From positions 620,001 through 684,000 of the forward strand of contig NZ_PHHE01000001.1 in assembly GCF_002813455.1 (NCBI RefSeq): a DNA stretch of 64,000 nt, read 5' to 3'. The position numbers and the translations under genes are program-made. Every line of letters starts with the position of its first letter. Within the stretch, counting starts at the first letter, position 1. Under the pieces are notes generated by a model. That model was not told the origin of the DNA. It made no database searches and saw only the letters and a program-made list of their open reading frames with translations. The stretch is from Pseudomonas baetica. GTDB lineage: Bacteria > Pseudomonadota > Gammaproteobacteria > Pseudomonadales > Pseudomonadaceae. Of this stretch, positions 15,284 to 61,098 are shown one piece after another.

Positions 15284-15534
15284 TTCAGCTGCTGTAAACG
15301 CTGTACCGTAGAGGCTGTGGCGCGGGCTTCAACCCGCGTCATGGCTATAACCAGAGCAGCAGCCATAAGCTGCGGCTCTTATTTTGAAGAAATGAGACAA
15401 GCAGGGGCATCCGGGCTGGTACCCGGACTATCAGTGTGATCCTAAGTGGCTTGTTTTAGTCGCTGCATTCGGACTTCTGCAAGTTTGCTCGGTGTCGACA
15501 CCGATGGTGTTCCCCTAACCGAGGGTGACCAAGC
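15284..15534 (+). other. Structured spacer between sdhB and sucA
   Basis: A non-coding spacer with at least two hairpins: CGCGGG/CCCGCG at 15321-15338, and AGAGC..CAGC/GCTG..GCTCT at 15353-15379, followed by ATTTTG. It may modulate the level of sdh relative to suc mRNA or be an RNA-processing point. No promoter is obvious. Confidence 0.5.
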
Positions 15535-21165: not shown

Positions 21166-21364
21166 CAGACAATAAGAAACCACGGCGGTAACGGCCCGTC
21201 GTGAGCCTTGCGAGCAAGTCTCACCGCGGAATGTCCGCTGGACGCAGTCTTGCGTAGCTGCACCGGATACCCGGAAGGCTACGCAAGCAGCAGTCACAGG
21301 TGGCGCGGCACTCATAAAGAGCGCAGCGCCGAATGCGCAGTACCTAACGAAGACGGTAAAAAGC
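21166..21364 (+). other. Spacer between lpdG and sucC with a 10-bp perfect hairpin
   Basis: CTTGCGTAGC (21249-21258) pairs perfectly with GCTACGCAAG (21278-21287) around a 19-nt loop that itself contains CCGGATACCCGG. The surrounding 200 nt hold no ORF. No T-run follows, so this looks like a stabilising or processing structure rather than a terminator. Confidence 0.55.
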
Positions 21365-46194: not shown

Positions 46195-46658
46195 GTGGCT
46201 CACCTTGTTCTTGTGTGATGTGAGATTGTGGCTCTTTGATATCACTCTTGAGAGTGTGGCACAAGATTGGCGTCAGATAATTGATCGACGGCAGTTATTC
46301 GCCCGATGGACCCCTCTTTAATTGACGCTCAACCCCCAACCCTCTAACCTTCGCGGCTTGTTTCAGGTGCTCTGTGACGTGCGTCGACAGAGTGAAACAG
46401 GGAAGCCGGTGAGGGTTGTCTGCAGAGCAGGCACAACCACGATCCCGGCGCTGCCCCCGCAACGGTAAATGAGTGAAAACTGCGCCTTGAGCCACTGCTT
46501 CGAAAGAAGCGGGAAGGCGCGCAGTCAGGCGAACGCCGCTCATGAGCCCGGAGACCGGCCTGATCCATCCAGCGGCATCACGGTGGGCGATGCCAGGCTT
46601 TTTGCCGTCTATTCTTGTGCCTGCCCGCCGTTATCCAGCCTCAACGGAGAGCTCCCCC
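46195..46658 (+). other. Leader region of the cobalamin operon
   Basis: This gene-free stretch holds the promoter region (not clearly resolved), the cobalamin riboswitch at 46361-46568 and, after it, a candidate expression platform: GGCATC at 46574-46579 pairing with GATGCC at 46589-46594, followed by AGGCTTTTTG. Confidence 0.7.
46361..46568 (+). promoter_or_regulatory. Cobalamin (adenosylcobalamin) riboswitch
   Basis: The aptamer starts TTTCAGGTGCTCTGTGACG, continues through GGGAAGCCGGTGAGG, the GCTGCCCCCGCAACGG core and GAAGCGGGAAGGCGC, and ends in the B12 box region CATGAGCCCGGAGACCGGCC. All conserved landmarks are present in order. It lies 90 nt upstream of cobO and should shut the operon down when coenzyme B12 is abundant. 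The weak 6-bp hairpin with a T-run behind it suggests termination, but sequestration of the cobO ribosome site (GGAGAG at about 46646) is equally possible. Confidence 0.95.
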
Positions 46659-58224: not shown

Positions 58225-58247
58225 CCCCGGATAACCCCTGTAATTGG

Positions 58248-58324
58248 ATGGACTCGCCCAAGCCGAGGCGTCAATGCGCCACGGTGGCAGTCTAAACAGC
58301 CATCGACAGCGAGGGCGAGTCCAT
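58248..58324. repeat. Inverted repeat pair ahead of the recombinase gene
   Basis: ATGGACTCGCCC (58248-58259) is mirrored by GGGCGAGTCCAT at 58313-58324, the latter containing the AT of the start codon. A third copy lies at the right end (59664-59675). The left pair could fold the leader RNA and hide the start codon. Confidence 0.8.
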
Positions 58325-59408
58325 GAAAAATCATAGTTCGAATGATCAATCCCTGTCTTCTTCCGATTTGTCGGCCTGCACAACTTTGGCGGTAGATCTG
58401 GCCAAACAGGTCTTTCAGGTCGCTGGTGAAGATGTCCTCGGCCAGGTGCGCTATGAACAGCGGATCAAGTCGCGTGAGGCGTTTTATGAGTTTCTCCAAC
58501 AGCTGCCGCCTCATGTCGTGGTTTTGATGGAGACCGGTCCGGGAGCTCAAGCCTGGGCCCGGCAGTTGCAAGACAAAGGTAATCTGGCGCGGATTCTTCC
58601 AGCCGGTTTGGTGACCACACACCGCAGTGGGCCTAAAAATGATCGCAACGATGCGCTGGCGATTCTGCGCGCTGGTCGCGATGAAAAAATCTGCGCGGTA
58701 CCGGTCAAAAGCGTTGCTGCGCTGGCAATGCAAGCGCTGCATCGCGCCCGTCAGGGCTATGTGCGTCGACGCACGGCGGTCAGCAATCAGATGCGCGGCC
58801 TGCTGCTCGAGCACGGCGTGGCCTTGGCGCAGGGCGATGTTGCGATCAGTCAGAAGATTCCGCGGGTACTGGAAGATGCGACCCAGCCACTGCCTGGCCT
58901 GCTGCGTGAATTGATCGACGAACTGTTGGCTGAGTGGCGCCATTTGGGCGAGCGCATCGGCGTGTTGACGGGCCGCCTGGAAGTGGCCGCTAACGCCGAC
59001 ATGACAGCGAGGCGACTGATGACCGTGCGCGGCATTGGCCCAGTCATTGCCACGGCACTGGTGGCCAAGGAAACCAACCCTGAGCGGTTTCCCAATGCCC
59101 GCAAGTTTGCCGCGTACTTTGGCATGGTGCCTGACCAGCACAGCAGCGGGCAGACGGTCCGGCTGGGCGACATGACCAAGCGAGGTGATGTTTATTTACG
59201 CAGCTTGATGATCCAGGGAGCCCATTCGGTCCTGCAACAACTGCGACCTGATTCCCTGCAACCCGATGACCGCCGCTTGTTGCGGTGGATGAGCCGACTG
59301 GGCCGTAAGGAGGCTGCGATCAGGTTAGCCAACCGCAACCTACGAATCGTCTGGGTGCTTCTACAGAATGACCAGTCTTATCGTCGTCATGCTGGTAATG
59401 GTCAGTAA
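58323..59408 (+). CDS. IS110 family RNA-guided recombinase (transposase)
   Basis: A 361-residue protein. The N-terminal RuvC-like DEDD domain has Asp25 (LAVDLAKQVFQV), Glu70 (LMETGPGA) and Asp107/Asp110 (GPKNDRNDALAI). The C-terminal domain has MTVRGIGPVIATALVA (helix-hairpin-helix-like), FPNARKFAAYFGMVPDQHSSG and RGDVYLRSLMIQGAHSVL with the candidate nucleophilic Ser near residue 302. Both catalytic parts look intact. The start ATG lies inside a copy of the terminal repeat, and no usual Shine-Dalgarno precedes it apart from GCGAGGG. Confidence 0.93.
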   Translation: MKNHSSNDQSLSSSDLSACTTLAVDLAKQVFQVAGEDVLGQVRYEQRIKSREAFYEFLQQLPPHVVVLMETGPGAQAWARQLQDKGNLARILPAGLVTTHRSGPKNDRNDALAILRAGRDEKICAVPVKSVAALAMQALHRARQGYVRRRTAVSNQMRGLLLEHGVALAQGDVAISQKIPRVLEDATQPLPGLLRELIDELLAEWRHLGERIGVLTGRLEVAANADMTARRLMTVRGIGPVIATALVAKETNPERFPNARKFAAYFGMVPDQHSSGQTVRLGDMTKRGDVYLRSLMIQGAHSVLQQLRPDSLQPDDRRLLRWMSRLGRKEAAIRLANRNLRIVWVLLQNDQSYRRHAGNGQ

Positions 59409-59663
59409 GCGACGATAAGCCACTGAGCGACCGAGTTCTGCCACCGAGGTACTGACTGTCCGACCCTTTGCTGAAAAAAATTGACCCCAGGTAAGACCGG
59501 CGTGGATTGATGCCTAAGCTCCTACTGGCCTTCGAGGCCTGACTGTAATCGGCATGCCACGAGCTCTTCCAATTTTGGCCAGAGGCCGAAGACGGCTTCC
59601 ACGAATAGGCCTAATACATAGATGCAACGGGGCGACAGTTTTCAAAAAACGGGTAGACAGTGG
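59409..59663 (+). ncRNA. Candidate bridge RNA/seekRNA of the IS110/IS1111 element
   Basis: The 255-nt non-coding tail carries four short matches. AGCTCCTAC (59517-59525) is the reverse complement of the right target half GTAGGAGCT. CTGTA (59543-59547) equals the left target half. CCAATT (59569-59574) is the reverse complement of AATTGG at the element's left end. ATACATA (59614-59620) equals its right end. A GGCCT/AGGCC hairpin sits between the first two. Both loops thus have the same order: right guide (complement), stem, left guide (identity). RNA ends and promoter are not determined. Confidence 0.6.
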
Positions 59664-59678
59664 GGGCGAGTCCATACA

Positions 59679-59764
59679 TAGGAGCTGCGGCACGCTGCGA
59701 TCTTTTGATCTTGTTTTTTAAAGTCAAAAGATCGCAGCCTCGTTTCACTCGACAGCTCCTACAG
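59679..59764. repeat. REP-like palindrome (GTAGGAGCTG family) beside the element
   Basis: GGAGCTGC...GCTGCGATCTTTTGATC, a spacer and GTCAAAAGATCGCAGCC...GACAGCTCCTACAGG form a long inverted repeat. Its left edge has been cut by the IS110-type element. A related unit occurs at 9916. Confidence 0.85.
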
Positions 59765-59790: not shown

Positions 59791-61098
59791 GGTTCTTCAC
59801 GGAATCCCGGGAAACACAGAAACAAGAACGCCGATTTGATTGATGATGTTCGTGCGAGCAAACACATCTAACAAACCGGCGTTCTTATGCACGATATTAA
59901 TACTTTCCTTCCTTTTTGGGAGGGCTTTTCTGTCGTCACGATCAAGCCTGATGGTGATGCCCTCCAGATCGATCTGACACCCCACGCCACCCGATTCCCT
60001 TCCTGTGGTGGGTGCCAAAAACCCTGTTCAACCACGCATGAGTATTGCCAGCGAGTCATTCGTGATTTACCCATTCTCGGTCGCGCAGTACGCCTGAGCG
60101 TTTTGCTCCGACGCGTTGGTTGCCGCGACTGTGGCAAACGCATGGAGGCCGTCAGTTGGCTGGATCGCTATGCCCGTATGACACGGCGTCTGGCAGAGGC
60201 GGTCATTCAAGCCTGTGAACGCCTTCCCACGTTGCACGTAGCGCAGATGTTTGGGCTGCATTGGGAGACCGTTCGGGTGCTGGAGCGTCGAGCCTTGCAA
60301 GCAGCATTGAGCGTTTTGCCAAAGGCGCAACCGCGACGCTTGGTGATGGACGAGTTCGCATTATTCAAAGGTCATCGTTATGCCAGCGTTGTTCTGGACG
60401 CGGATACGCGACGGGTGCTGTGGATCGGCGAAGGCCGCAGCCGGGCGGCGGTCAGGCCATTTTTCGAAGAGCTGGGGCCAGAGGGGTGCGCCCGAATCGA
60501 AGCGGTGGCAATGGACATGAACACCGCTTTTGATCTGGAGGTTCGTCAGCACTGCCCAAAAGCGCGAGTGGTCTACGATCTTTTCCATGTGGTGGCCAAA
60601 TATGGCCGAGAGGTGATTGATCGGGTTCGCGTCGACGAAGCCAATCGACTGCGTCACGACAAGCCGGCCCGAAAGGTCATCAAGCAAGCGCGTTGGCTGC
60701 TCCTGCGCAACCCGCAGAACCTGAAAACACCGGAGCAACAGGTCCGCTTGGAGGATTTGCTGGCGGCCAACCAAGCGTTGATGACGGTCTACTTGATGAA
60801 AGCTGAACTCAAAACGCTCTGGACGCCAAGTACCGCCTGGGGCTGGAGATCAGCCTGGAAGCAATGGCTGCGCCACGCTGATGAAAGCGCGATACCGGCT
60901 CTGATCCTGTTCGCCAAACGGCTAAAGGGTTACTGGCGGGGAATCGTCAGCCGGGTTCGCTGGCCGATGCACACGGGGCAGTTGGAAGGCATAAACAATC
61001 GAATAAAGGTTATCAAACGGATGGCGTACGGTTACCGGGATAGCGAATTCTTTTTCATGAAAATCAAGAGCGTCTTTCCCGGTAATCCGTGAAGAACC
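59791..61098 (+). mobile_element. Intact ISL3-family insertion sequence, 1308 bp
   Basis: Terminal inverted repeats GGTTCTTCACGGAATCCCGG at 59791 and its mate ending at 61098 match at 22 of about 24 positions. The 8-bp direct repeats ATTAAAAA flank it at 59783-59790 and 61099-61106, the typical size for ISL3. The right copy is the A-run side of the fadL terminator. Confidence 0.95.
59887..61092 (+). CDS. ISL3 family transposase
   Basis: A 401-residue DDE transposase with an N-terminal zinc-binding region (SCGGCQKPC and later GCRDCGKRMEAVSWLDRYAR). The catalytic acidic residues are in LVMDEFALFKGHRYASVVLD, in VAMDMNTAFDLEV with ARVVYDLFHVVAKYG, and in GQLEGINNRIKVIKRMAYGYRD at the C-terminus. 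The protein looks full length. It ends 6 nt from the right end of the element. Confidence 0.95.
   Translation: MHDINTFLPFWEGFSVVTIKPDGDALQIDLTPHATRFPSCGGCQKPCSTTHEYCQRVIRDLPILGRAVRLSVLLRRVGCRDCGKRMEAVSWLDRYARMTRRLAEAVIQACERLPTLHVAQMFGLHWETVRVLERRALQAALSVLPKAQPRRLVMDEFALFKGHRYASVVLDADTRRVLWIGEGRSRAAVRPFFEELGPEGCARIEAVAMDMNTAFDLEVRQHCPKARVVYDLFHVVAKYGREVIDRVRVDEANRLRHDKPARKVIKQARWLLLRNPQNLKTPEQQVRLEDLLAANQALMTVYLMKAELKTLWTPSTAWGWRSAWKQWLRHADESAIPALILFAKRLKGYWRGIVSRVRWPMHTGQLEGINNRIKVIKRMAYGYRDSEFFFMKIKSVFPGNP

Follow-up and report, generated by a model that had tools for sequence, protein, structure and literature searches.

An IS1111-type insertion sequence of Pseudomonas baetica carries a predicted tail RNA whose guide bases vary with the insertion site

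In the window, by which we mean the whole 64,000-nt stretch of P. baetica DNA analyzed here, a 1.44-kb insertion sequence occupies positions 58241–59678 (+ strand, like all features of the element given below), with a glutathione-peroxidase-like gene on one side and an ISL3-family transposase gene on the other. The latter gene (59887–61092) lies directly 3' of a pair of REP sequences at 59679–59763 (+), of which the first (TAGGAGCTGCGGCACGCTGCGATC...) is interrupted by the element and the inverted partner ends near 59763. The tnp gene of the element (58323–59408) encodes a 361-amino-acid DEDD recombinase with PF01548 and PF02371 domains, and the protein scored 277 bits against the NCBIfam model NF033542, "IS110 family RNA-guided transposase". 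In an alignment of 23 recombinases, Asp25, Glu70, Asp107, Asp110, and the Ser275-Gly276 motif were invariant, and a profile of this alignment had C-terminal-domain matches to the solved chains of ISCro4 and IS621. The protein thus has the DEDD RuvC-like domain and the PF02371 domain with the SG motif that are found in the IS110 family, including its IS1111 group. Exact 12-bp subterminal inverted repeats, ATGGACTCGCCC at 58248–58259 and GGGCGAGTCCAT at 59664–59675, are within the range of about 11–13 bp of the IS1111 group, and a non-coding stretch of about 270 nt, bearing the guides described below, follows the tnp stop at 59408. Such repeats and such a stretch after the gene are marks of the IS1111 group according to excerpts of PMC11187229. 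One fixed site and orientation per element, also expected of this group, were found in 9/9 copies of the P. baetica genome. The element was assigned on these grounds to the IS1111 group of the IS110 family. Rfam at the gathering threshold detected neither a bridge-RNA nor a seekRNA family in the whole window; elsewhere in it, Rfam matched sucA-II (15315–15531), sucC (21293–21363), and a cobalamin riboswitch (46348–46577).

The P. baetica chromosome carries nine full, near-identical copies of the element, all of them inserted where a REP begins, at nTGTA|GGAGCTGC. Since TGTA was the only left flank common to the nine copies, the C of CTGTA, originally predicted to be the left target half, lay outside the shared site, while its TGTA part stood. 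TA occurs at both junctions, so that the cut is ambiguous by 2 bp. For IS1111 elements, terminal extensions of 7 bp on the left and 3 bp on the right have been described (PMC11187229, in the sections available), and when this rule was applied together with the motif positions and the P. baetica copies, the cut fell before TA (CTG|TAATTGG...ATACA|TAGGAGC), which fits insertion without target duplication, with the repeated TA leaving the ambiguity, and gave the bounds 58241–59678. The bounds predicted earlier (58243–59680) are equivalent owing to the repeated TA; the family convention moves the junction 2 bp further left. The insertion site in this genome is TGTA|GGAGCT, which is present in a subset of Pseudomonas REPs. 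A search across the P. baetica genome for orphan tails, comparable to the orphan ssr9 copies of ISPpu9, found none.

The original prediction had read the 255-nt tail as a bridge RNA or seekRNA with four guide motifs, and these were located exactly where it placed them: AGCTCCTAC at 59517–59525, CTGTA at 59543–59547, CCAATT at 59569–59574, and ATACATA at 59614–59620. ATACATA is identical to the right end of the element (59674–59680), and the hairpin GGCCT-TCG-AGGCC stands between AGCTCCTAC and CTGTA as claimed. In CCAATT, the first five bases are the complement of the left end ATTGG (58243–58247), whereas the last T is not conserved, being G in 12 of 16 aligned elements. The top-strand complement (59517–59524) precedes the bottom-strand match (59543–59547), which is the layout of seekRNAs. 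The prediction also cautioned that such short matches can occur by chance, and this was justified. When the 255-nt tail was shuffled 5,000 times with its dinucleotides preserved, 68 shuffled tails contained a 9-mer, from either strand, across the rebuilt target junction and 24 contained ATACATA, whereas none contained the ordered four-part layout. Because the layout was reached by 0/5,000 shuffles and the 9-mer by 68/5,000, it is the layout, not the 9-mer alone, that carries weight in a single sequence, and the comparative data decide whether the matches are chance.

The RNA stability of the window tail alone was ordinary (z-score −0.39); the fold of the single sequence was therefore uninformative and an alignment was needed. 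RNAalifold on 13 tails gave 37 base pairs, among them those of two loops. In the first, the predicted target-binding loop (59501–59561), two outer helices (59501–59505/59557–59561 and 59510–59514/59551–59555) enclose the right-target guide, a GGCC hairpin (59527–59530/59536–59539), and the left-target guide. The second holds, in this order, the left-end guide (CCAAT, 59569–59573), a GGCC stem with a hairpin (59577–59611, with helices 59577–59580/59608–59611 and 59582–59587/59594–59599), and the right-end guide (59614–59620). For the structure counts, 24 of the 37 pairs were used, leaving out an end-to-end helix and two small helices. On 16 tails, 98.6% of 360 cells of these pairs were paired, and sliding of the partners abolished the pairing. 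Double changes occurred in four pairs (11 cells), three of them in the outermost helix, and helix 4 was invariant across the tails. When these structure measures were compared with 500 shuffles, three were reached by none, the number of double-changed pairs by 8, and the number of pair types, which was ordinary, by 165. A covariance model of the tail, whose extent defines the predicted seekRNA- or bridge-RNA-like RNA (59496–59631), matched 33 of 90 loci with E ≤ 0.05 and gave no such match in the other 57. The matched loci, the named element ISPa25 among them, were mostly behind recombinases 33–42% identical. Thus the tail has a conserved structure, as expected of a guide RNA by the original prediction, in the form of a two-loop fold with compensatory changes and a model that reaches distant relatives. 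Bases comparable to the handshake bases of IS621 were sought in the tail, and no clear pattern was seen.

We then compared guides with insertion sites in 16 close elements. Besides the P. baetica element, these came from other sampled Pseudomonas genomes (13), from Pseudomonas sp. ERMR1:02 (one), and from an IMG/VR contig (one); genomes and loci are cited below by G and L numbers. The recombinases of the 16 elements are about 68–100% identical, and their tails could be aligned from end to end. At most six copies were fetched from each genome, and nine from P. baetica, giving 68 distinct right ends after one repeat (overlap of L183 and L184) was removed from 69. The right-target guide (59517–59524) consists of six bases facing the six target bases right of the core (59517–59522) and two facing the TA core (59523–59524). 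Its six-base part occurred in six variants and was perfectly complementary to the right flank at 63 of the 68 distinct right ends. AGCTCC was found with GGAGCT sites in P. baetica, ERMR1:02, G275, G230, and G098; AGCTGC with GCAGCT in G129; GGCTCC with GGAGCC in G255, G012, and G182; CGCTCC with GGAGCG in G139, G104, G204, and the IMG/VR contig; CGCTCT with AGAGCG in G264; and CCCTCC with GGAGGG in G022. The five misfits were distributed one each over G275 (GGAGCC), G264 (AAAGCG), G139 (GGAACG, one mismatch), G046, and G255. In G046, the guide AGCTGC (for GCAGCT) stands with a GGAGCT site in a single copy with a broken tnp match, and in G255, a tail remnant (GGCCTG) comes after the right end. 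This last locus (L184, G255:C1, right of 1793023) has the remnant of another tail between the right end and the REP flank, which suggests recombination at a site inside a tail. The mean guide/flank fit was 5.87 compared with 4.91 in shuffled data and was reached by 0 of 20,000 permutations, one duplicate end being included and relatedness ignored. Homologues with the same tail at unrelated sites, which would have spoken against the assignment of the guides, were therefore not what we found; the guide changes with the site across homologous elements, and the assignment was borne out.

To this comparison we added a covariation scan of variable tail columns with variable flank or end positions, in which complementarity as well as identity was counted (388 tests in which at least half agreed). 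Rank 1 went to target base 6 with guide base 59517, a score reached by 0 of 1,000 shuffles. The expected register also held for target bases 1, 5, and 2 and for left-end base 3; all four rest on one or two elements each and were equalled by 61, 69, 127, and 12 of 1,000 shuffles, respectively, and scores equally high were given by some pairs off the register, for example left-end base 3 with alignment column 53. The left-target guide (CTGTA, 59543–59547) showed no covariation in the close elements. The RNA of G129 has CGTA and its sites TGTA, and left flanks of CGTA or AGTA occurred in 8 of 64 cases (G255, G012, G182, and G139); in the close elements this guide is only (T)GTA. In the donor pair, left-end base 3 and its guide base changed together in G104 and G204 (12 of 1,000 shuffles as good; the G204 left end was taken from another contig of that genome). 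The donor-loop bases match both element ends, except that left-end positions 4–5 are partly or wholly unmatched to the RNA in 5 of the 16 elements (G255, G012, G230, G139, and G204), and the left-end guide is firm for three bases. ATACATA was invariant in the RNA of 16/16 close elements, including the IMG/VR contig, the sole one with a changed right end (ATACGTA).

To examine site choice against the supply of REPs, five site types were counted in 14 genomes and insertions were compared for 13 of them, G022 being left out since its type, GGAGGG, was not counted. The p values are binomial, take insertions as independent, and treat the left TGTA, absent from 8 of 64 left flanks, as required. In G129, all six fetched insertions were at GCAGCT, which makes up 154 of 1,949 counted sites (p = 2.4e-7), the supply of other types including 867 GGAGCT and 904 GGAGCG. 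Similarly, 6/6 insertions in G182 were at GGAGCC (153 of 794 sites; p = 5e-5), 5/6 in G264 at AGAGCG (12 of 927; p = 2e-9), and 5/6 in G275 at GGAGCT (360 of 1,311; p = 0.007). In the remaining nine genomes, P. baetica included, p ranged from 0.018 to 1 and the test said little; G046 was contrary. The G264 element (loci L025, L195–L198, and L251), about 80% identical and with the guide CGCTCT, was found at CGCTGTA|AGAGCGAAACCATA in five of six cases, and this site belongs to a different dispersed repeat which, judged by eye, is not a typical REP. These results supported the view that the guide rather than the REP itself sets the insertion site.

For distant relatives, we used the model-matched loci together with viral contigs, with recombinases down to 31% identity. 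The right-target guide was read at its aligned place and its target was sought within 150 nt downstream; 19 of 53 aligned matches were dropped for gaps in the guide columns or short downstream DNA, and four of the remaining 34 were close elements. The predicted target was found with 7 or 8 of 8 bases in 21 of the 30 distant loci, nine of which had all 8, whereas swapped predictions reached 7 in 57 of 1,116 cases and 8 in none. By eye, 20 of the 21 good predictions lay directly behind a right-end-like sequence, that of L089 being the exception and that of L128 lying behind the second such end. L128 has two right-end-like sequences in tandem behind the tail, 3' of tnp.

In a fixed-register test, the ends were taken from the inverted repeats and no best place was searched for. 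Three loci without a clear repeat were dropped, as were nine of 53 for short DNA or repetition; of the 41 left, seven were removed (one duplicate, L079 and L034 for lack of a usable end, and L197, L089, L081, and L048 because the wrong repeats had been taken), and 34 loci, 31 of them distant, were kept, including L047, the left end of which looks wrong. The right-end guide matched 5/5 bases in 31/31 distant loci, the first two right-end letters being partly fixed by the way the end was located, and it followed ends as different as ATGTA, ATCTA, ATATA, ACACA, ATAGA, and ACAGA. The left-target guide matched 3/3 in 15 of 23 distant loci and the left-end guide 5/5 in 16 of 29, the latter with a modest edge over swapped pairs (mean 4.41 versus 3.97 of 5). 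The right-target guide matched 6/6 in 6 of 23 (mean 3.5 of 6 versus 1.5), several of these guides being shifted by one base in the alignment. All four guides fitted their own DNA in the distant loci better than in any of 20,000 permutations, in which relatedness was ignored. Both members of the donor pair of the original prediction were thus upheld, the left-end guide by covariation of base 3 in two close elements and the right-end guide in the distant set. In the 30 loci with usable left ends, the junction dinucleotides were xA on the left and xG on the right in 17, the same in 11, and otherwise in two, with some left ends possibly misplaced by one base, and both RNA loops mostly carried the right-hand, target-derived dinucleotide (19/23 and 26/31). 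This hints at a strand-exchange step in which a mismatch in the core is tolerated, unlike in IS621, where the CT core is shared. There is perhaps an even chance that the four-part code is legible in the raw sequence of much of the IS1111 group, with natural guides adjusted one base at a time to REP subtypes or, as in G264, shifted to a different dispersed repeat.

No relative with at least 60% identity was found on plasmids at E ≤ 1e-40, and a search of 392 genomes of 90 genera at E ≤ 1e-80 gave none outside the genus of the window. A scan of genome contigs gave two carriers outside the genus, in Alloalcanivorax (L052, 72%) and in a Paucimonas MAG (L053, 65%), and a second draw of genomes of the genus gave no further carriers beyond those already found. 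A usable tail was sought at L052, L053, L051, L054, L030, L032, L033, and L255, and none was found; L054 ends inside the gene.

Several other explanations of the tail were weighed against these data. The recombinase protein itself might recognize REP hairpins, with the tail matches arising as a by-product of a REP-rich host. The P. baetica copies are unable to separate this from guiding by the RNA because all nine lie at REPs and GGAGCT is the commonest subtype in this genome (212 of 269 counted sites). However, G129, G182, and G275 used the subtype that fits their guide despite more abundant others, G264, with a changed guide, was in a different dispersed repeat, and the predictions made from the RNA held in distant relatives with unrelated targets, which renders recognition by the protein highly improbable. 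That the four matches are merely chance in a 255-nt tail, as the 9-mer spanning the junction in 68 of the 5,000 shuffles would allow, is practically negligible, being contradicted by the covariation and also at odds with the ordered layout, the site choice, and the distant relatives.

Alternatively, the tail might mainly be a regulatory small RNA acting on tnp expression rather than a guide, as with Ssr9, an RNA of ~180 nt 3' of tnp in ISPpu9, itself an IS110-family element that targets REPs (PMC8450116, excerpts). In a regulator, however, there would be nothing to make single bases vary along with the site of insertion, and we consider this very unlikely as the main role, although the roles of regulator and guide are compatible with each other. 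For the donor loop, it could be argued that the target loop is real while CCAAT and ATACATA are kept for structure or recombinase binding and do not read the ends. The invariance of ATACATA in the close elements, its persistence opposite the ATACGTA end of the IMG/VR contig, and the left-end positions 4–5 that the RNA did not follow all agree with this. On the other hand, left-end base 3 changed together with its guide in G104 and G204, and the right-end guide followed six differing ends in all distant loci, which makes a purely structural donor loop unlikely. We conclude that the observation of four guides in the tail is correct and that their interpretation as guides is supported.

Taken together, the element very probably moves by means of an RNA-guided DEDD recombinase, guided by the tail RNA and inserting at TGTA|GGAGCT. 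The anatomy of the element, its copies, the conserved fold, the covariation of guides with sites and ends, and the site choice against REP supply support this, and transcription, binding, pairing, and strand exchange are proposed by analogy with ISEc11, ISPa11, and IS621. In the proposed cycle, the element would be excised as a circle, and joining of the two ends would create a promoter across the junction (TAGACA-17 bp-CATAAT), from which both the tail RNA and tnp, the latter restrained by a hairpin in its leader, would be transcribed. The RNA would then be bound by the recombinase. In its target loop, AGCUCC and UA would pair with the top strand across the core and to its right, and (U)GUA with the bottom strand on the left; in its donor loop, CCAAU would pair with the left end and AUACAUA with the opposite strand at the right end. 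Finally, the circle would be inserted by the recombinase at TGTA|GGAGCT, in the subset of Pseudomonas REPs that have this sequence.

The −35-like TAGACA is at 59654–59659, and in the joined circle it would be 17 nt before CATAAT, formed by 59677–59678 joined to 58241–58244, the two hexamers making up a candidate promoter close to consensus. Hexamers resembling −35 and −10 sequences were found across the joined ends of 16/16 elements with 9–11 of 12 positions matching, as the best-scoring choice and with no chance control; the spacer was 17 nt in 15 elements and 18 nt in G129. At the integrated right end, the hexamer score was lower by one (G264) or two, on one flank per element and likewise with no chance control. 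Junction promoters have been reported for these element families in PMC11187229, as far as its excerpts go. A third copy of the 12-mer repeat (58313–58324) overlaps the tnp start codon; it is an exact copy of the right-end repeat, with at most one change among the element copies compared, and is predicted to pair with the left repeat in the mRNA leader. The predicted leader hairpin (58250–58322), with a 10-bp stem and a fold z-score of −5.96, covers the region before the ATG, and a comparable leader structure has been proposed for ISPpu9 in the available part of PMC8450116. The third 12-mer could also serve as a decoy end.

By these comparisons, a guess from a single sequence became a tested guide map. 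The six guide variants in 16 elements form a natural retuning series that shows which bases decide the site, and the reading of donor ends by IS1111 elements, predicted by inspection for a few elements in PMC11208160, is supported by comparison. Concrete target predictions also came out of the analysis, as did a covariance model with reach into distant members.

A 2006 paper described ISPpu9, ISPpu10, and ISPa11 as targeting REPs (PMC1525189, excerpt), and seekRNAs and bridge RNAs were published in 2024 (PMC11187229, Siddiquee et al. 2024; PMC11208160; PMC11208158; each in excerpt). A literature search covering titles and the beginnings of abstracts, with most subscription journals outside its scope, found nothing on this element or on retuning of guides to REP subtypes. 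The closest likeness is to the seekRNAs of the IS1111 elements ISEc11, ISPa11, ISKpn4, and ISPst6, which, in the available sections of PMC11187229, are likewise encoded 3' of tnp with the top-strand complement 5' of the bottom-strand match; these elements share the subterminal repeats of 11–13 bp, the 7- and 3-bp extensions, and natural redirection by changed matching bases, and ISPa11 shares the Pseudomonas REP as target. The P. baetica element is another element, the RNA of which is predicted from sequence, and in those sections target matches are treated, whereas here the donor-end guides were also tested by comparison. Like the bridge RNA of IS621 (PMC11208160 and PMC11208158, excerpts), the predicted tail RNA has a target loop and a donor loop, each with a left and a right guide, and is encoded together with a DEDD plus serine recombinase. 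In IS621, however, the RNA lies 5' of tnp, at the 5' end of the element, and the left guide comes before the right; in the present element it lies in the 3' tail, the order of the target-loop guides is reversed, as in the IS1111 group, and the subterminal repeats are long. ISPpu10 and ISPa11 are also Pseudomonas IS110-family elements at REPs, and target and donor guides were predicted by inspection for these two and four others (PMC11208160, excerpt); the likeness drawn here is by description. ISPpu9, with its small RNAs Asr9 and Ssr9 (PMC8450116, excerpt), similarly targets REPs, has a small RNA 3' of tnp, and has a leader thought to bury the ribosome-binding site, but it differs in having AG at the junctions and orphan ssr9 copies, whereas the P. 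baetica element has TA and its genome no orphan tails. In ISPa25 (NZ_CP137509.1, L256), the tail matched the covariance model at E = 5.5e-7 and both end guides fitted 5/5; its recombinase is about 40% identical, its target guides fitted in part (the right one 6/8), and it targets integron attC sites according to an excerpt of PMC11187229. Because seekRNAs and bridge RNAs have been published and guides have been predicted for REP-targeting relatives, the element is not a new system; it joins the known seekRNA/bridge RNA class, for which it offers unusually clear natural evidence.
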